This document shows, piece after piece, positions 3 to 7,820 of a stretch of DNA of 64,000 nucleotides; position 1 is the first letter of the stretch, and every line of letters starts with the position of its first letter. This DNA comes from Rhodobacter calidifons. Its GTDB lineage: Bacteria; Pseudomonadota; Alphaproteobacteria; Rhodobacterales; Rhodobacteraceae. Location: contig NZ_JAANHS010000005.1 in the NCBI RefSeq assembly GCF_011174775.1, positions 1-64,000 of the forward strand. Reading direction: 5' to 3'. The translations under genes and the position numbers were made by a program. Below the pieces are notes generated by a model, which worked only from the letters and a program-made list of their open reading frames with translations, was not told where the DNA came from and did no database searches.

Positions 3-323
3 GCCGAGGGGCGGGGCCGCCTGGTCGCGCTGGCCGAGCGGCTGGAGGCGGCCCCGGCGGCGCGGTTCGCCCGGGCGCGCGACCGGCTGGAGGCGCTTGA
101 CCGGACCCGGATGACGCTGGGCTACCATGCAACGCTGAAACGGGGCTATGCGGTGGTCCGGGCGGACGGGGCGGTCGTCACCTCGAAGGCAGGGGCCGAA
201 AAGGCGGCCGCGCTGGAGATCGAGTTCGCCGACGGGCGGATGGCGGTCGGGAACCGGCCTGTCCGGCGGGCGAAGGGCGCTGAGGACGGCGGGCCGGACG
301 GCGGGCAGGGCAGCCTGTTCTGA
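3..323 (+). CDS. xseA: Exodeoxyribonuclease VII large subunit, C-terminal part
   Basis: The reading frame is already open at the left edge, so only about the last 106 residues are present. XseA is the catalytic subunit of exonuclease VII, which degrades single-stranded DNA in both directions together with XseB. The visible part has an arginine- and leucine-rich helical stretch followed by the typical C-terminal GYAVVR segment and a hydrophilic tail ending GSLF. The call rests on this tail alone, because the OB-fold and catalytic core lie outside the window. The next gene is convergent, 76 bases further on. Confidence 0.8.
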   Translation, partial: AEGRGRLVALAERLEAAPAARFARARDRLEALDRTRMTLGYHATLKRGYAVVRADGAVVTSKAGAEKAAALEIEFADGRMAVGNRPVRRAKGAEDGGPDGGQGSLF

Positions 324-399: not shown

Positions 400-807
400 T
401 CAGACCCCGAAATAGCCCTCGCAGGTCACGATCTCTGGCGAGGGATACAGCAGGATCGGCGGGTTGGCCCGGTCGCCGTCCAGCCAGGCCATCAGCCAGT
501 CGCCGCGGTCGTGGTAGGTCCAGCAATAGGGCTGCGGCTCGCCGGGGTAGTCGAAGCAGATCAGCGCGCCCTGCGGGCGCCAGCGACCTTCGAGGCAACG
601 TTCGGCATCGCGCCAGATCGCGCGGCGGCCGGGCAGGAAGGTTTCCACCCCGTAGCGGCCGGTCTGGTCATGGGTGTCGAAGGTGCGACCCTGCACGAAG
701 GTCTCGAAGGCCTCGGCCGAAAGCGGCGGGTCGGTCTCGGCATGGACCGCGAACCCGCAGGCCAGGGCGGCGGCCAGAAGCGCCGGGCCGCGCATCGCGG
801 GCATCAT
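400..807 (-). CDS. Small exported four-Cys protein, tandem paralogue 6 (last of array)
   Basis: I do not recognise a named family. It is about 135 residues: an N-terminal signal peptide ending near VHA-E, then an AEAF segment, GVETFLPGRR, a cysteine followed by EGRW, the ICFDY motif, YCW and a C-terminal C-EGYFGV. It is the most divergent of six tandem copies: the usual terminal GPDVGV is reduced to GYFGV, although all four conserved cysteines remain. The ATG at 807 overlaps the upstream stop as ATGA, suggesting translational coupling; ATG 795 (MRG) would match the other copies better and is an alternative start. The signal peptide and paired cysteines suggest a disulfide-bonded periplasmic protein, which is inference. 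Confidence 0.75.
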   Translation of the reverse strand: MMPAMRGPALLAAALACGFAVHAETDPPLSAEAFETFVQGRTFDTHDQTGRYGVETFLPGRRAIWRDAERCLEGRWRPQGALICFDYPGEPQPYCWTYHDRGDWLMAWLDGDRANPPILLYPSPEIVTCEGYFGV

Positions 808-1199
808 GCGCCGATTCCGGGGCCAGGACAGGCCGGGGGATCGGGCGTCTCGGCGATGGTGACCGGCGGCGTTCCGGGCGGATGCGCGGTGTAGAGCGCA
901 TCGAAACCGTCGGCGGTGCGGGTGATGATCCAGCAGTCGGGCTCGCTGTCGGTTTCGTACTTGAAGCAGATCGCGGGGCCATCGGCATACCAGTGCCCGG
1001 CGGTGCACTCCGCGCCCACCGCCGCCCAGCGGACCCGGCGGCCGGGCAGATATTGCTCGACGCCATAGACTGCGCCGAACTCGGACCAGGTCATGCTGCG
1101 GCCCAGGGTGAGCGCGTCGAATTCCTCGGCCGTAACGGGGTCTTCGGCGCAGACCGGGCCTGCGGCAAGAGCAACGAGCAGGCAAGGCAGTCCGCGCAT
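804..1199 (-). CDS. Small exported four-Cys protein, tandem paralogue 5
   Basis: A 131-residue member of the six-copy array. It has a signal peptide with cleavage likely near VCA-E, then TAEEFDAL, GVEQYLPGRRVRW, C-TAGHWY, AICFKY and DCW, ending C-PGPGIGA, a slightly degraded form of the shared C-terminal motif. There is an extra cysteine in the signal peptide. The start follows the stop of paralogue 4 with only two bases between (TGA-CC-ATG), the same junction as between copies 3 and 4. Function unknown. The reading frame and exported nature are well supported by conservation among the copies. Confidence 0.8.
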   Translation of the reverse strand: MRGLPCLLVALAAGPVCAEDPVTAEEFDALTLGRSMTWSEFGAVYGVEQYLPGRRVRWAAVGAECTAGHWYADGPAICFKYETDSEPDCWIITRTADGFDALYTAHPPGTPPVTIAETPDPPACPGPGIGA

Positions 1200-1201
1200 G
1201 G

Positions 1202-1594
1202 TCAGACCCCCACGTCGGGGCCGGTGCAGGCCAGAGGTGCCGAGGCCTCGGTCACCTGTTGCGGCGGCGTGTCCGGGGCGGCCGACAGGGGCTGCGCCAC
1301 GACCGTCTCGCCCTCGCGCCAGTAGTGCCAGCAATGCACGCCCGCGATGGCCGGATAGACAAAGCAGATCGCCTCGCCATCCGCAAACCAGCTGCCGTCG
1401 ATGCAGGGACCGCCTCTGTCGGCATCGCGCACCCGGCGGCCTGCGAAATAGGTCTCCGAGCCCAAGATCTGCCCATCCACCGCATAATCGAGCGTCTTGC
1501 CCCGCGACCAGTCGTCGAATTCCTCGGCCGTCATCAGGGTCTGCGCTGCAAGGGGCTGAGCCGTGAGAAGCCAGACCAAGATCCCGACGCGCAT
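1202..1594 (-). CDS. Small exported four-Cys protein, tandem paralogue 4
   Basis: A 130-residue member of the array with a signal peptide (cleavage near LAA-Q), TAEEFDDW, GKTLDY, GSETYFAGRRVR, C-IDGSWF, AICFVY, HCW and the C-terminal C-TGPDVGV. It differs from the others in lacking the Trp after the RRVR motif (RRVRDAD) and in the segment between ICFVY and HCW, which lacks the usual D-P residues. The start is two bases after the stop of paralogue 3. No function can be assigned from sequence. Confidence 0.8.
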   Translation of the reverse strand: MRVGILVWLLTAQPLAAQTLMTAEEFDDWSRGKTLDYAVDGQILGSETYFAGRRVRDADRGGPCIDGSWFADGEAICFVYPAIAGVHCWHYWREGETVVAQPLSAAPDTPPQQVTEASAPLACTGPDVGV

Positions 1595-1596
1595 GG

Positions 1597-1989
1597 TCAG
1601 ACCCCCACGTCGGGGCCGGGGCAGGGCAGGGGCGTCGTGTCGGCCGCGGTCTCGTACAATTCCTGACCCGGCGCGGCCTCGGTCGACAGCGCCACCAGCG
1701 CGCCGTCCTTCAGCCAGAAGATCCAGCAGGCGGGCCGCGGGTCGCCGTCATAGACAAAGCAGATGTCCTGTCCCGCAGGATACCAGCTGCCGTACTGGCA
1801 GGTGTCGGCCGTCACGCTCCAGCGGACCTTGCGGTCGGCCATGTACTGCTCGATCCCGAACAGGACGCCGTCCTGCCGGTAGGTGATGGTCTTGCCGGTG
1901 ACATGGGCCTCGAACTCGTCGGCGGTGATCGGGGGCTCGGCGGCGGCGAGCGTCGGCCAGAGCACAAGCAGCAGGGCAGGCAGGCGCAT
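1597..1989 (-). CDS. Small exported four-Cys protein, tandem paralogue 3
   Basis: A 130-residue member of the array: signal peptide (cleavage near LAAA-E), TADEFEAH, GKTITY, GIEQYMADRKVRW, C-QYGSWY, ICFVYDGDP, ACW and C-PGPDVGV at the very end. It is closest to the inferred family consensus. ATG 1989 was chosen because the resulting signal peptide aligns with the other copies; an ATG further upstream would overlap the previous gene. The upstream stop (TAG at 1994-1996) is four bases before this start. Confidence 0.82.
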   Translation of the reverse strand: MRLPALLLVLWPTLAAAEPPITADEFEAHVTGKTITYRQDGVLFGIEQYMADRKVRWSVTADTCQYGSWYPAGQDICFVYDGDPRPACWIFWLKDGALVALSTEAAPGQELYETAADTTPLPCPGPDVGV

Positions 1990-1993
1990 CGGT

Positions 1994-2398
1994 CTAGACC
2001 CCCACATCCGGGCCACGACAGGACAGGGGCGCGGTCGCCACGGTCACGCGGCGGGGGGCGTCGCCGGGCCGGTCGTCGAAGGACCGTGCGGTGACAGCCT
2101 CGCCATCGCGCCAAAGGGTCCAGCAATGCCTGAACGGGTCGCCGTCATAGACGAAGCAGATATGCCCGGACCATTCGTGCCAGGACCCTTCCAGGCACTG
2201 GCCATCGCTGCCGGCCCAGCGGACGCGGCGGCCGGGCAGATATTCCTCGGTGCCGAAGATGCCGCCCTCGTTGGCGAAGTCGAGCGTCCTGCCGGTGGCG
2301 AAGGCGTCGAATTCCTCGGCGCTCATCCGCGTTTCGGCGGCGGCGGAGGCTGCGGCGCACGACAGCAAGAGGGCAAGGCGCAGGGTCGGGCGAAGCAT
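1994..2398 (-). CDS. Small exported four-Cys protein, tandem paralogue 2
   Basis: A 134-residue member of the array with a signal peptide ending near SAAA-E, SAEEFDAF, GRTLDF, GTEEYLPGRRVRW, C-LEGSW, ICFVYDGDP, HCW and the C-terminal C-RGPDVGV. It shares the GTEEYL-GRRVRW block almost exactly with paralogue 1, so these two may derive from the most recent duplication. The start lies three bases beyond the stop of paralogue 1. Function unknown. Confidence 0.82.
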   Translation of the reverse strand: MLRPTLRLALLLSCAAASAAAETRMSAEEFDAFATGRTLDFANEGGIFGTEEYLPGRRVRWAGSDGQCLEGSWHEWSGHICFVYDGDPFRHCWTLWRDGEAVTARSFDDRPGDAPRRVTVATAPLSCRGPDVGV

Positions 2399-2401
2399 CG
2401 G

Positions 2402-2794
2402 TCAGACGCCCAGATCCGGCCCGGGGCAGGGCAGGGGGCCGCCCCCGCGTGAGGATTCCAGGATCTCCCAGCCGCCGCCCTCGCCCATGTAGCGGCCGCG
2501 GATCCTGCCATCCTCAAGGAAATACAGCCAGCAGGCCGGGGTCGGGTCGTTTTCGTAGTCGAAGCAGATCTGGTCCCCCTTCTGATACCAGACGCCATAG
2601 ATGCACAAGTCGCCCTCGAAGGCCCAGCGGACCCGGCGCCCTTCAAGATATTCCTCTGTCCCGAACAGCCCGCCGCCGTAGTCGTAGGTGATCGTGTCGC
2701 CCCGGGTGGCCGCGTCGAAGGCCTCGGCGTCCAGCGGGGTTTCGGCAAGCGCCGGCGTGGCGGCAAGGATCAGGGCAAGGCGGAAGGCACGCAT
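2402..2794 (-). CDS. Small exported four-Cys protein, tandem paralogue 1 (first of array)
   Basis: The promoter-proximal copy, 130 residues: signal peptide (cleavage near ALA-E), DAEAFDAA, GDTITY, GTEEYLEGRRVRW, C-IYGVWY, QICFDYENDP, ACW and the terminal C-PGPDLGV. ATG 2794 is preferred over an in-frame ATG at 2806 because a GGAG Shine-Dalgarno sequence lies six bases before it. The stop of the AlkB-type monooxygenase gene is 55 bases upstream on the same strand, so the monooxygenase and all six copies may form one transcript. Confidence 0.82.
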   Translation of the reverse strand: MRAFRLALILAATPALAETPLDAEAFDAATRGDTITYDYGGGLFGTEEYLEGRRVRWAFEGDLCIYGVWYQKGDQICFDYENDPTPACWLYFLEDGRIRGRYMGEGGGWEILESSRGGGPLPCPGPDLGV

Positions 2795-2849: not shown

Positions 2850-3923
2850 TCAAGCCGCCGTGTCCGCGGGTGCTGCCGCAGGTCGGGTTTCCCGCCATCG
2901 GGCCAGGTGAGGCGCGATGGCGCGCCGCCATGTGCGCGGGGCAAGCGCCAGGGCACAGGCCAGGGGCAGGGGCCAGGGCAGACGGGGGGCCTCGTCCGCC
3001 GGCGGCAGGATGAGGGCGGGGAAGGCGCGGCCGGGGTGGACATGGTGGTCGGAATGGCGCGGGGCGTTCAGCATCATCGCCGAGGAGAACCAGTGCGCAG
3101 TGTTCCAGCTGTGGGCGGGGCCGACGGGTTCCGGTTTCCCGTCCGGCCGCCGGGTTCGGGTCAGGCCGTAGTGCTGGACGTAGTCGGACAGCAGGATCTG
3201 GCTTTGCGCATGCAGCGCAAGGCAGACCCAGGCGAGAAGGCCGGGCAGGCCGGCGATCAGGAAAGCAAGTGCGAGGGCGGCCAGGCCGATCGCCAGATAG
3301 GCGGCGTAGGGGTGCAGGCCGCGCCCGGCCACCCCCTTGCGCAGCGCCGTTTCCGCCTTGGCGCCTTCGCGGAAGCTGCCGATCCAGGCGCGGGGGGCGA
3401 AACGGTAGAAACTCTCGCCCGCCCGGGCGGTGTTCGGATCGTCGCGGCTGGCGACGTGGCAGTGGTGGACCAGCCGGTGGGCGCTGGCGTGCTGGCCGAA
3501 GAGCAGGGCGGAATAGACCGTGGCCCCCAGGCGGAACAGGGCGCGGCGCGGGCGGTGGATCAGCTCGTGCGCGGCCGGATGCGCGACCTGGCCCAGCCAG
3601 AAGCCCGCCGCGAAGAACAGAAGCACCCGCTGGCCCCCGGTCAGGCCCGAGGCTCCGGCAATGCCCCAGGTGGCCAGGGGCAGAAGGACCAGCGCGCCGC
3701 ATCCTGCCGCCACCAGCAGCGCGTCGGCAGCCGGAAACTCGCCGTCCTCGGCCGGTGCGGCGGTCAGGGGGATCAGCTGGTCAAGGACCAATGTCAGCAC
3801 CGCCATGTAGAGAAATCCCGCCCAGAGCCAGCCGCCGCCAAGCGCCAGCCCGGCCGCGATCAGTGCCAGCGGGCCAAGCGCGGCCAGCGCAAAAAGGGGA
3901 AGGGGCAGGGGGCGTGCTTGCAT
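2850..3923 (-). CDS. AlkB-type membrane di-iron monooxygenase (alkane hydroxylase / desaturase superfamily)
   Basis: A 357-residue integral membrane protein. It shows the histidine boxes of the membrane fatty-acid desaturase/alkane hydroxylase superfamily: HELIH at about 119-123, HRLVHH at about 149-154 and HSDHH near residue 290, plus the AlkB-like signature DYVQHYGL near 245 (known AlkB proteins carry N-Y-x-E-H-Y-G). Hydrophobic segments precede and separate the boxes. Known members hydroxylate terminal carbons of alkanes or modify lipids using rubredoxin or ferredoxin as electron donor; no rubredoxin gene is seen nearby, so the substrate is open. Six small exported protein genes follow on the same strand. 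Confidence 0.8.
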   Translation of the reverse strand: MQARPLPLPLFALAALGPLALIAAGLALGGGWLWAGFLYMAVLTLVLDQLIPLTAAPAEDGEFPAADALLVAAGCGALVLLPLATWGIAGASGLTGGQRVLLFFAAGFWLGQVAHPAAHELIHRPRRALFRLGATVYSALLFGQHASAHRLVHHCHVASRDDPNTARAGESFYRFAPRAWIGSFREGAKAETALRKGVAGRGLHPYAAYLAIGLAALALAFLIAGLPGLLAWVCLALHAQSQILLSDYVQHYGLTRTRRPDGKPEPVGPAHSWNTAHWFSSAMMLNAPRHSDHHVHPGRAFPALILPPADEAPRLPWPLPLACALALAPRTWRRAIAPHLARWRETRPAAAPADTAA

Positions 3924-3971
3924 CGGGGGTAATGTGCGGTGAAGTCTGGCGCGGGGAAGGCGGAGGGCAGG

Positions 3972-4682
3972 ATGCCGGACAAGTTGGGCGAAATGCTGGC
4001 GGTTGCAACCGCAATTCCGGCACTGGCGGCGGCGGTCGTCTTCTGGCTGCGCTTTGCGACGCGCGAGGTCAAGGGTCCGGTGGGAGCGGCGGTCAAGACG
4101 GCCTCGACCGGCCTTCTGGCGGTTCTGGGGCTGGCCCTGGCGGTTGCCCTGTCGCCGGGGGGCTGGTTCTGGCTGTTTGCGCTGGGGCTGGCGCTGGGGG
4201 CGCTGGGCGACCTGATGCTGGCGCTGGGCGGCCTGCGGCGGTTTCTGGCCGGTGTGGCGGCCTTCGGCCTGGGACATCTGGCCTATGCGGGCGGTTTCCT
4301 GTGGCAAGGCGCCGCGCTTGGCTTCGACGGCCTCTCGCTGCCCGAGGGGCTGGCGCTGGGTGGGCTTCTCGCCCTTCTGGCCTCGACCGAGGTCTGGCTT
4401 GCCCCGCGCACCGGGGAATTGCGCGCGCCGGTGCGGGGCTATGTCGGGCTGATCGGGCTGATGGGCGCTGCGACGCTGATGCTTCCGGCGCATCCGGGGC
4501 AGGGCATCCTGCGGATCGGGGCGGCGCTGTTTCTTCTCTCGGACCTGCTGCTGGCGCTTCAGCTTTTCGTGGTCAGGGATGCCGGATGGCGGCGGCGTCT
4601 GGCGCTGACGCTCTGGCCCGCCTACTGGGCGGGGCAGGCGCTGATCCTCTGGGGCGCGGTGCAGTTCGCGGGCGTCGGGTGA
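3972..4682 (+). CDS. YhhN family membrane protein (lysoplasmalogenase-like)
   Basis: About 236 residues, almost entirely hydrophobic, with roughly eight predicted membrane segments and the GALGDLMLAL and LLLALQLF segments typical of the YhhN/TMEM86 family. Characterised family members hydrolyse the vinyl-ether bond of lysoplasmalogens; bacterial members may act on related ether lipids. ATG 3972 was chosen because GGAGG lies just upstream. The gene is divergent from the AlkB-type monooxygenase with about 48 bases between starts, so both share one promoter region and could both concern membrane lipids (inference). Confidence 0.75.
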   Translation: MPDKLGEMLAVATAIPALAAAVVFWLRFATREVKGPVGAAVKTASTGLLAVLGLALAVALSPGGWFWLFALGLALGALGDLMLALGGLRRFLAGVAAFGLGHLAYAGGFLWQGAALGFDGLSLPEGLALGGLLALLASTEVWLAPRTGELRAPVRGYVGLIGLMGAATLMLPAHPGQGILRIGAALFLLSDLLLALQLFVVRDAGWRRRLALTLWPAYWAGQALILWGAVQFAGVG

Positions 4683-4871: not shown

Positions 4872-6032
4872 ATGTCGTTCTTCAGAAAGCTCAAGGAGCG
4901 CATGTTCCGCTCTTCGGACCGGATCGGCGAGGGGCTGGAGGCGCTGGTCGCAGAGGGTGCCGAGGCGCCGAAGGATCCGCCGCCGGAGATCCCCGCCCCC
5001 CCGCCGGACCTGCCGGCCCCCGCGCCGCCGGAACTGCCCCAGCCTTCGCATCCCGACCCTGACCCGCCGCCGCCCGAGGATCCCGCCCCTGCTGACCTCG
5101 GCCGCCCGGCGACGGCGGCCGGGACCACGCCCTCGGCCGAGCCCGCAAGGCCCGGGCTTCTGGGGCGGCTCTTCGGCCGGGCCCAGGCCGAAGAGCCGCG
5201 CCGGGTGCTGGATGACGCCATGCTGGAAAGCCTGGAGGAGCTGCTGATCCAGGCCGACATGGGGGTGGACACCGCCGTCCGGGTCACGGCGAACATCGCC
5301 GAAGGCCGGTTTGGCCGGAAGATCTCGACCCGCGAGCTGCGCGGGGCGCTGGCCGAGGAAGTGGCGCGGATCATGGCGCCCGTGGCGCGGCCGCTGCCGC
5401 TTTATCCCCAGAAGCCGCAGGTCGTGCTGGTGGTGGGGGTGAACGGTTCGGGCAAGACGACGACGATCGGCAAGCTTGCCAGCCAGTTCAAGGCGGCCGG
5501 CAAGCAGGTGGTGATCGCGGCGGGCGACACGTTCCGCGCGGCGGCGGTGGAACAGTTGCAGATCTGGGGCAACCGCGCCGGCGTGCCGGTCCTGACGGCT
5601 CCGGAAGGGTCGGACCCGGCCTCGCTGGCCTTCGACGCGCTGACCCGGGCCAGGGCCGAGGGTGCGGATCTTCTGATGATCGACACGGCGGGGCGGTTGC
5701 AGAACCGGGCCGACCTTATGGAGGAACTGGCCAAGATCGTCCGCGTCATCCGCAAGGTGGACCCGACCGCGCCGCACAACACGCTTCTGGTGCTGGATGC
5801 CACCACCGGACAGAATGCGATCACCCAGGTCGAGATCTTCCGCAAGATCGCCGATGTCTCGGGGCTGGTCATGACCAAGCTGGACGGGACGGCCAAGGGC
5901 GGCGTGCTGGTGGCCCTGGCCGACCGCTTCGGGCTGCCGATCCATGCGATCGGCGTGGGCGAGCAGATCGACGATCTGGCGCCCTTCGACCCCGAGGAGT
6001 TCGCCAGGGCCCTGGTCGGGGCCGAGGCATGA
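4872..6032 (+). CDS. ftsY: Signal recognition particle receptor FtsY
   Basis: A 386-residue SRP-family GTPase that docks ribosome-SRP complexes at the inner membrane. After a basic N-terminus there is an acidic, proline-rich A domain (to about residue 95), then the four-helix N domain and the G domain: P-loop GVNGSGKTTT at about 188-197, DTFRAAA, DTAGR, TKLDG and the closing GVGEQIDDLAPF. All GTPase motifs are intact. ATG 4872 fits the usual MSFF-K start; an in-frame ATG 30 bases earlier lacks a clear ribosome site. Its stop overlaps the next start as ATGA. Confidence 0.97.
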   Translation: MSFFRKLKERMFRSSDRIGEGLEALVAEGAEAPKDPPPEIPAPPPDLPAPAPPELPQPSHPDPDPPPPEDPAPADLGRPATAAGTTPSAEPARPGLLGRLFGRAQAEEPRRVLDDAMLESLEELLIQADMGVDTAVRVTANIAEGRFGRKISTRELRGALAEEVARIMAPVARPLPLYPQKPQVVLVVGVNGSGKTTTIGKLASQFKAAGKQVVIAAGDTFRAAAVEQLQIWGNRAGVPVLTAPEGSDPASLAFDALTRARAEGADLLMIDTAGRLQNRADLMEELAKIVRVIRKVDPTAPHNTLLVLDATTGQNAITQVEIFRKIADVSGLVMTKLDGTAKGGVLVALADRFGLPIHAIGVGEQIDDLAPFDPEEFARALVGAEA

Positions 6033-6952
6033 TCCGGCGCGCGGTCCTCGCGCTGTTTCTGGCCATGGCGCCGGGCGGGCCGGCTCTGGCCGAGACCAGC
6101 CTGTGCCGGCACGTCTGGGATCGGGTGTCCGCCACGCTGGGCGCGCTTGGCCGGGTCACGGCAGAGGCCGTGGCACAGGAGGGCGACTGGTGTCTGGTCA
6201 GCCGCCCGGTCCTTGACATCGACGGGCGATATGCGCCGGACTGGCATCTGGATCGGCTGCGGTTTCGCGGCAGCGCGCCGGTCTGGCTGGTGGACGGATC
6301 GGTGCCGCCCGAGTCGCTGGAGGTCGCGGTCGAAGGTCTGCGTCTGGTGGTGCAGACCGGAGATGCCCAGTTCGACTGGCTGTACGCGGCGCAGGCTCGG
6401 GCCAACACCATCGCGGCCGAGGCGTCGCTGGCCTGGGAACCCGCCGCGCGCCTGTTGCGGCTGGAAGGGCTGCGCGTGGATTTCCCCGGCGCCAATGCGC
6501 TGGACCTGCGCGCGGTGGTGGCGGGGGTGGACCTGTCCTCCGCCGGGGCGATGCAGATGTCGGCCACGGGCTTTTCCCTGACCGAGGCGGACCTGCGGAT
6601 CGAGACGCATGGTCTGTTCGAGGCCTATCTGCTGATGCCGCTGGGGGTGAACCTGCTGCCCTCCGAGGGCGACATGCAGGCCGCGGCCGAAACCTTGCGC
6701 GGCGATCTTCTCGACCTCGTCGCCGCCTTGCCCGAGCCTAGCGTTTCCCCCGCCAGCAAGGCGGCGCTGGTGGGCGAATTGCCGAACCCGGCGGGGGTGC
6801 TGACGCTTTCGCTGCGGGCTGAGTCCGGCATCGGGCCGGCACGGCTTGCCGGATATGCCCTGACCGGCATGCCCGCGACGCTGGCCGAGGCAGCGCCGCT
6901 GCTTCGGGGGGTGGTCGTGGATGTCGGGTGGAGCCATGGCGATGCGCCTTAG
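6029..6952 (+). CDS. Exported protein of unknown function, coupled to ftsY
   Basis: A 307-residue protein with a clear signal peptide (cleavage near ALA-E). I do not recognise the family. The mature part is leucine-, alanine- and valine-rich with alternating hydrophobic stretches that suggest beta structure, and cysteines occur only near the N-terminus (SLCRHVW, DWCLVS). Its C-terminal third resembles that of the next gene product (LP...G.LTL.L..E.GIG.A.L...AL and a final VDVGW against LDIDW), so the two are diverged duplicates. The ATGA overlap with ftsY implies co-translation, but no role in protein targeting follows from the sequence. Confidence 0.75.
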   Translation: MIRRAVLALFLAMAPGGPALAETSLCRHVWDRVSATLGALGRVTAEAVAQEGDWCLVSRPVLDIDGRYAPDWHLDRLRFRGSAPVWLVDGSVPPESLEVAVEGLRLVVQTGDAQFDWLYAAQARANTIAAEASLAWEPAARLLRLEGLRVDFPGANALDLRAVVAGVDLSSAGAMQMSATGFSLTEADLRIETHGLFEAYLLMPLGVNLLPSEGDMQAAAETLRGDLLDLVAALPEPSVSPASKAALVGELPNPAGVLTLSLRAESGIGPARLAGYALTGMPATLAEAAPLLRGVVVDVGWSHGDAP

Positions 6953-7820
6953 GCTGGCGCTGATCCTGGCGCTGGCCGCGGGTCCGGGCGCGGCCGAGAC
7001 GGCGGTGGACTGCGCCAGGATGCCGGACCTTCTGCGCGACCTGTCCGGCCTTGCGGTCACCGCCCCGCCTGCGGCAAGTGCGGAGGACTGGTGCGTCCTG
7101 GACGGGGCACGGCTGGGACCCGATGGCGGTCCGCGCATCACGGCGGCGCAGTTGCGGGCCCGCGCGACGGCGGACGGGCCGGAGATCCTGTCGCTTGCGC
7201 TGGAGGCGCGCGGGCTGCGTCTGGCGCCGGATCCCCGGGACCCTGGGATGCCGGACTGGCTGCGCGACCTGTTGCGGTTGCAGTCGGGCGATCTGCGTCT
7301 GATGCTGCGGCGCGAGGTGGAGGCGGACCGGCTGCTTCTGGATCTGGCGCGGCTTGATCTGTCGGGGGGCACCATGCTGGAGCTTTCAGGCGCGCTTGCC
7401 GGGGCAGGGATCGCCCCGCGAACGCTGCCGTCCGGTCGGCTGCGGCAGGTGCGGCTGGTGTGGCGCAGCGACGGAAGCACACTGCGCCCGGTGCTGGCCG
7501 CCTGGGGCGCGCGGCTGAAGCCGGGCCTCGCCGAAGGCGCGGCGGTAGAAGCGGCCCGCGCGGCGCTGCTGGCGCTGGCCGCGGCGGTGCCCGCAGGCGC
7601 GCTTGGCGAGGTGGCGCGGAAAGAGCTGGAGTCGGCGATCCGCGCCCTGCCGCAGGGGCGGGGCAGGCTGACCGTGGACCTGGCTTCGGAAGGCGGGATC
7701 GGCGCGGCGGATCTTGGCCTTCTGGCCCTGTTGCGCGACCCCTCCGGCTCCGATGCGCTGGCGCAGTTCCTGGCGGGCAGCCGGCTGGACATCGACTGGC
7801 AGCCGGGCATCCTGCCCTGA
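6942..7820 (+). CDS. Exported protein of unknown function, paralogue of the preceding gene
   Basis: About 292 residues with a signal peptide (cleavage near GAA-E), an early cysteine pair (DCARMP, DWCVLD) like its neighbour, and a similar C-terminal region ending LDIDW. The start is uncertain: ATG 6942 has GGAG at a good eight-base spacing, while ATG 6936 and 6921 are in frame upstream. The gene overlaps the end of the preceding one by 11 bases. Together with ftsY it forms a tight three-gene run. Confidence 0.75.
   Translation: MRLRLALILALAAGPGAAETAVDCARMPDLLRDLSGLAVTAPPAASAEDWCVLDGARLGPDGGPRITAAQLRARATADGPEILSLALEARGLRLAPDPRDPGMPDWLRDLLRLQSGDLRLMLRREVEADRLLLDLARLDLSGGTMLELSGALAGAGIAPRTLPSGRLRQVRLVWRSDGSTLRPVLAAWGARLKPGLAEGAAVEAARAALLALAAAVPAGALGEVARKELESAIRALPQGRGRLTVDLASEGGIGAADLGLLALLRDPSGSDALAQFLAGSRLDIDWQPGILP

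Follow-up and report, generated by a model that had tools for sequence, protein, structure and literature searches.

An ordered array of tandem paralogues encoding putative exported four-cysteine proteins in Rhodobacter calidifons and its relatives

Why should a bacterium keep six diverged copies of one small gene side by side, and does each copy have its own job? The question is raised by a stretch of 64,000 nucleotides from Rhodobacter calidifons (contig NZ_JAANHS010000005.1, positions 1 to 64,000; hereafter the window), which carries at 400–2794, on the minus strand, six intact open reading frames of 130–135 amino acids each. Judged from the sequences, these genes belong to a real, old and ordered array of paralogues encoding four-cysteine proteins. 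Given the strand, transcription runs from copy p6 to copy p1; the letters below denote orthologous groups, defined later in the text.

2402..2794, minus strand: copy p6 (group A), first gene of the array and its most conserved copy
1994..2398, minus strand: copy p5, divergent, occupying the F/G slot
1597..1989, minus strand: copy p4 (group B)
1202..1594, minus strand: copy p3 (group C), which evolves fastest among groups A to E
804..1199, minus strand: copy p2 (group D)
400..795 (or 400..807), minus strand: copy p1 (group E), last gene of the array

The original prediction, made from the window's sequence alone, described genes of 130–135 residues lying head to tail and starting every 395–409 bases, and this layout holds: in transcription order the start-to-start distances are 396, 409, 395, 395 and 404 bases. 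Its gaps of 2–4 bases apply to the first four joints (3, 4, 2 and 2 bases) and not to the last, p2/p1, which measures 8 bases unless p1 begins at an alternative ATG at 807, in which case there is a 4-base ATGA overlap with the stop of p2. The strand (minus) and the setting of the array, in a locus with an AlkB-like gene upstream, were absent from that account.

Beyond the signal peptide the six proteins share 30–50% pairwise identity (mean 38%), and 22 columns of their alignment never vary, four cysteines among them. The motifs first noted (AE-F, GRRVRW, C-x2-G-x-W, ICF-Y, CW and a final C-xG) all reappear in the alignment. The N termini resemble type I signal peptides, in keeping with the claim that all copies carry one, and no lipobox is visible (both judged by eye); the proteins are thus predicted to be exported, either to the periplasm or out of the cell. 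A profile built from the six scores each copy at 171–199 bits and finds no seventh copy in the same genome at E <= 1, so the similarity is not a matter of chance.

Is the array peculiar to this genome? Named relatives carry Tabrizicola and Rhodobacter names, and the Tabrizicola flagellatus orthologue of p6 shows 90% identity to it (68–90% across the 27 loci found with p6). Within this genus 31 of 32 genomes match, its own included; the sole miss is 70% complete, and all 23 good genomes match. The genus loci were combined with others in a tree of 157 copies (28 genus loci plus 28 loci of other genera; 130 columns, four short matches excluded), which leaves many branchings unresolved and whose bootstrap is not fully settled. 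The genus copies nevertheless split into seven groups, A to G, none of which includes a copy from another genus. All 28 loci are compatible with one gene order, A-(F)-(G)-B-C-D-E, two of them containing A alone; L074 and L076 stop right after copy A, and L091 begins just ahead of it. Because copies cluster by position across species, and not by genome, concerted evolution or recent duplication is rejected, with the exception of a second E copy in L073.

The window itself reads A-?-B-C-D-E, with p5 in the F/G slot. In the free tree p5 lies beside group C (99/93), although uniting it with group G is also compatible with the data (p-AU 0.389). We also considered p5 as a chimera, but sliding identity shows no clean switch of donor group.

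Some of the splits predate the genus (the starred branches of the tree). In G282, a genome of another genus, one copy sits next to group A and another next to group B; the second copy of G296 branches with E, and the lone copies of L052 and L056 branch with D. The 26 multi-gene loci hold 2 to 7 copies, and A and B are present in every one (the search query, p6, itself belongs to A). Of the remaining groups, C, D, E, F and G, none occurs in every array; later losses affected groups C to G.

Gene joints are no longer than 20 bases in 85 of 92 cases among 27 other loci of the genus. Such tight joints indicate an operon-like arrangement, whose genes are presumably co-transcribed, and the recurrence of the same copy order in related bacteria suggests that each copy has its own job.

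Further evidence comes from the ratio of nonsynonymous to synonymous substitution rates (dN/dS; Nei–Gojobori method, signal-peptide residues skipped, only the first E copy of L073 included), a measurement that the original prediction had proposed. Pairs with tiny or saturated dS were dropped (A 35 of 378, F 5 of 21, G 0 of 3, B 13 of 325, C 47 of 171, D 5 of 190, E 12 of 190). Every usable pair falls below one: the median is 0.152 for group A and 0.241–0.512 for the other groups, with a maximum of 0.833. Between the window and T. flagellatus the values are 0.142 (A), 0.146 (B), 0.225 (C), 0.193 (D) and 0.499 (E). Fast evolution marks groups F and C. In-frame stops occur, among the listed genus matches, in two array copies, one stop each, both from genome G020 (array in L037 and L087). 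Decay of single copies therefore does occur, but among those matches the disrupted frames that would have undone the idea of selected copies are confined to these two. The claim of distinct, selected roles accordingly divides: orthologous groups, kept order and dN/dS below one bear out distinct selected paralogues, while separate roles are something we infer.

Outside the genus the gene is common and the array is not. A profile search for copy number and neighbours, the check first suggested for this locus, found one copy to be usual in the family and an array of up to seven in the genus. In a sample of Rhodobacteraceae 243 of 295 genera match, mostly with one hit (copy counts here are lower bounds, as few candidates were scored per genome); in the order sample, which overlaps that of the family, 126 of 149 genomes match. 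Matches thin out beyond this: 21 genomes in a class sample of 387 (16 of them outside the family and weak, E 9.9e-4 to 2.7e-9) and 19 in a phylum sample of 299 (5 outside the family and weak, E 9.7e-4 to 8.5e-9). Among the genera sampled, the large array is restricted to the Tabrizicola/Rhodobacter genus; elsewhere in the family the gene is mostly single-copy. A mobile origin was ruled against: only one of 72,556 plasmid records matches, a 1.58 Mb replicon of Pseudorhodobacter turbinis, and a viral fold search with the p1 model returned no match at E <= 1e-3.

Adjacent pairs of copies occur in three other genera (G722:C1, G787:C1 and G747:C9, all of one genus; G104:C31; G766:C1), which suggests that this gene has been duplicated in tandem more than once. 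The family has a further, more distant branch (E ~1e-18 to 1e-22) that lies off the tandem position, for example at G081:C1:2874924-2875292, G069:C11:1235485-1235859 and G211:C10:1566223-1566606; in G081 some 3 kb separate it from the main copy, and in others the distance is large.

What are these proteins? No credible family match was found for any of the six in Pfam or NCBIfam, nor was anything credible found among PDB sequences, and the phage and anti-phage defence models of PHROGs and PADLOC matched none of the six (E <= 0.01). No known, characterised family that would have displaced the original prediction thus emerged from these four model libraries. Five PDB profile matches (oligogalacturonate lyase, AcrIIC1 and others; E 0.066–1.6) cover the profile only in part and were taken as chance. 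A Pfam scan of 125 genus members at E <= 5 gave 19 scattered families, each in at most 12 members; a defensin propeptide (3 of 125 members, best single E 0.00081) was taken as a chance match within the signal peptide. Searches of PMC full text with broad terms found no description of the family. PMC2241609 lists Rhodobacterales-specific hypothetical proteins under gene names that could not be mapped to the four-cysteine family, which may be mentioned there. The family, marked by a signal peptide (by eye), four invariant cysteines and, in most loci but not all, a place between ftsY and xseA, is thus unnamed but common, old and without assigned function: a gene found in about four-fifths of the sampled Rhodobacteraceae genera has no family model in the searched libraries and no known function.

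Structure prediction, also among the proposed checks, gave models (p6 and p1 included) that resemble a lipocalin-like barrel, predicted to be eight-stranded. The earlier statement that no described system looks like this one therefore holds for the family in the searched libraries and fails for the predicted fold, which is familiar. Conserved residues alternate along strands 2–6 (G45, E47, Y49; R53, V55, W57; G67, W69; I76, F78, Y80; W89, in p6 numbering). By strand alternation, and not from coordinates, we read them as a single face, the barrel interior; group F departs from it at E47 and group C at W57, one site each. Group-diagnostic residues are distributed over several strands. The most likely cysteine pairing is C77–C88 inside the barrel with C64–C123 tying down the tail.

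In kernel lipocalins the first strand opens with a GxW motif. In p6, strand 1 starts at T34 after G32 and has no W, and the conserved GxW (G67–W69) lies on strand 4. Among the known systems closest to the predicted fold are small bacterial lipocalin-like domains such as Lipocalin_4 (PF13648), to which the solved lipocalin-like proteins BACOVA_00364 (4gzv) and BACUNI_01346 (4qrl) presumably belong. That family has no match to any of the six proteins at E <= 1, is not among the 19 families found for the 125 genus members and is not seen in the same genome at E <= 0.01; unlike it, the window proteins combine four invariant cysteines with a GRRVRW / GxW / ICFxY / CW signature. We know of no conserved two-disulfide pattern in the YceI family or in its Burkholderia representatives BcnA and BcnB. 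TP0435 (Tp17) of Treponema pallidum (4u3q) shares 13–18% identity with the window proteins in structural alignments but is described as a lipoprotein (PMC4861935), whereas they have no visible lipobox. BcnA and BcnB are reported as lipocalin-fold proteins, BcnA being secreted; their two same-strand genes are separated by 63 bp and adjoin a predicted cytochrome gene (PMC5350466). They are, however, a pair and not an array of up to seven, and YceI is absent from the Pfam matches of the 6 window and 125 genus proteins. As a predicted fold this is nothing new; what is new is the gene arrangement and the putative two-disulfide pattern.

Distant alphaproteobacterial relatives hint at how the second disulfide joined an exported fold, for the four-cysteine pattern is invariant in the family and most of these relatives have two cysteines. 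An alignment of eight such proteins gave a profile–profile match over 105 columns (probability 98.9). Among 21 distant hits, C77 and C88 are kept in 19, G67 in 19, W69 in 19 and E47 in 14; C64 is found in 3 and R53 in 2. Many end in GNP-like tails, and eight distant proteins from outside the family had no Pfam match above cut-off. These relatives were sampled at 13 of the 20 loci L118–L137, of which 9 (Pfam scan), 5 and 8 (tail comparison) were used.

Tandem genes, orthology, order, purifying selection and invariant cysteines are established at the level of sequence. How might such an array work? Our leading reading, held tentatively, is that these are exported lipocalin-like paralogues, kept in order, each with a ligand of its own, be it a small hydrophobic or amphipathic molecule or a component of the envelope. 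The array would go back to a gene lying downstream of an AlkB-like gene, which was duplicated partly before the Tabrizicola group arose; the copies would have diverged into up to seven orthologous paralogues within one operon-like unit of fixed order; and each would act outside the cytoplasmic membrane, copy A retaining the ancestral role and the others taking on further specificities. We prefer divided ligand binding because known bacterial lipocalins are reported to hold hydrophobic ligands in the barrel (PMC5350466). The set of binding or inhibitor proteins that the original prediction put forward would likewise suit the predicted fold.

Nearly as likely, and a serious contender, is a role with protein partners: the copies may act as inhibitors of lytic enzymes or proteases, or as helpers of envelope machines, together covering different partners. 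Against this, no sequence relation to an inhibitor family was seen in Pfam or NCBIfam. It is possible, if rather doubtful, that the whole picture holds: one operon of up to seven ancient paralogues, each holding its position and a ligand or partner of its own for as long as the genus has existed, built from a gene that is single-copy in most of the family. On that view the array would serve as a shared-out repertoire of binding functions, either periplasmic or extracellular. The Tabrizicola array provides a natural experiment: a single copy of ancestral type can be compared with as many as seven that have diverged and kept their order, so that the division of binding roles among small barrels can be tested directly.

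Could the neighbouring genes supply the function instead? Those around the array are:

2850..3920, minus strand: AlkB-like membrane monooxygenase/desaturase gene, ending 55 bases upstream of the array (Pfam FA_desaturase, E 1.8e-24); the name AlkB is taken from its histidine motifs
3..323, plus strand: 3′ end of xseA (exonuclease VII large subunit), convergent and bounding the array (Pfam Exonuc_VII_L, E 1.9e-12)
3939..4682, plus strand: YhhN-family gene, between the AlkB-like gene and ftsY

We followed alkB, yhhN, ftsY and xseA through 60 loci of other genera, hand-picked and so non-random, from genera with a match; 58 hold a single copy. The proteins might be accessories of the adjacent AlkB-like monooxygenase, for example as periplasmic carriers of its hydrophobic substrate or product, and 42 of the 60 do have the AlkB-like gene upstream in the same orientation; within the genus it precedes A in 26 of 27 loci, the 27th of which starts 79 bases before A. 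Yet 16 of the 60 keep the four-cysteine gene with no AlkB-like match at E <= 1e-8 within ~14 kb, and the AlkB-like gene is therefore not required. Moreover, ftsY (upstream and divergent, 53 of 60) and xseA (downstream and convergent, 39 of 60) also stay in place, so the shared position is largely inherited; the YhhN-family gene is upstream in 25. The link to AlkB is suggestive only, and the accessory role seems improbable. Within the genus xseA follows in 22 of 27 loci; a look through the available flank did not reveal it in L075, L083 or L087, and L074 and L076 end too early, as noted above.

Redundant duplicates retained for dosage or by drift would suit the variable copy number, the patchy groups C–G, the G020 stops and the fast evolution of F and C, but this seems very unlikely: some groups, at the least, predate the genus, the groups keep their order and diagnostic residues with dN/dS below one, and dosage does not fit six window copies that differ by 50–70%.

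Beyond ftsY, two overlapping genes of ~300 codons lie on the plus strand (6029–6952 and 6921–7820), both exported-looking and of similar layout. A Pfam scan gave no match for their products; both match one stretch of locus L104, so they are perhaps mutual paralogues.
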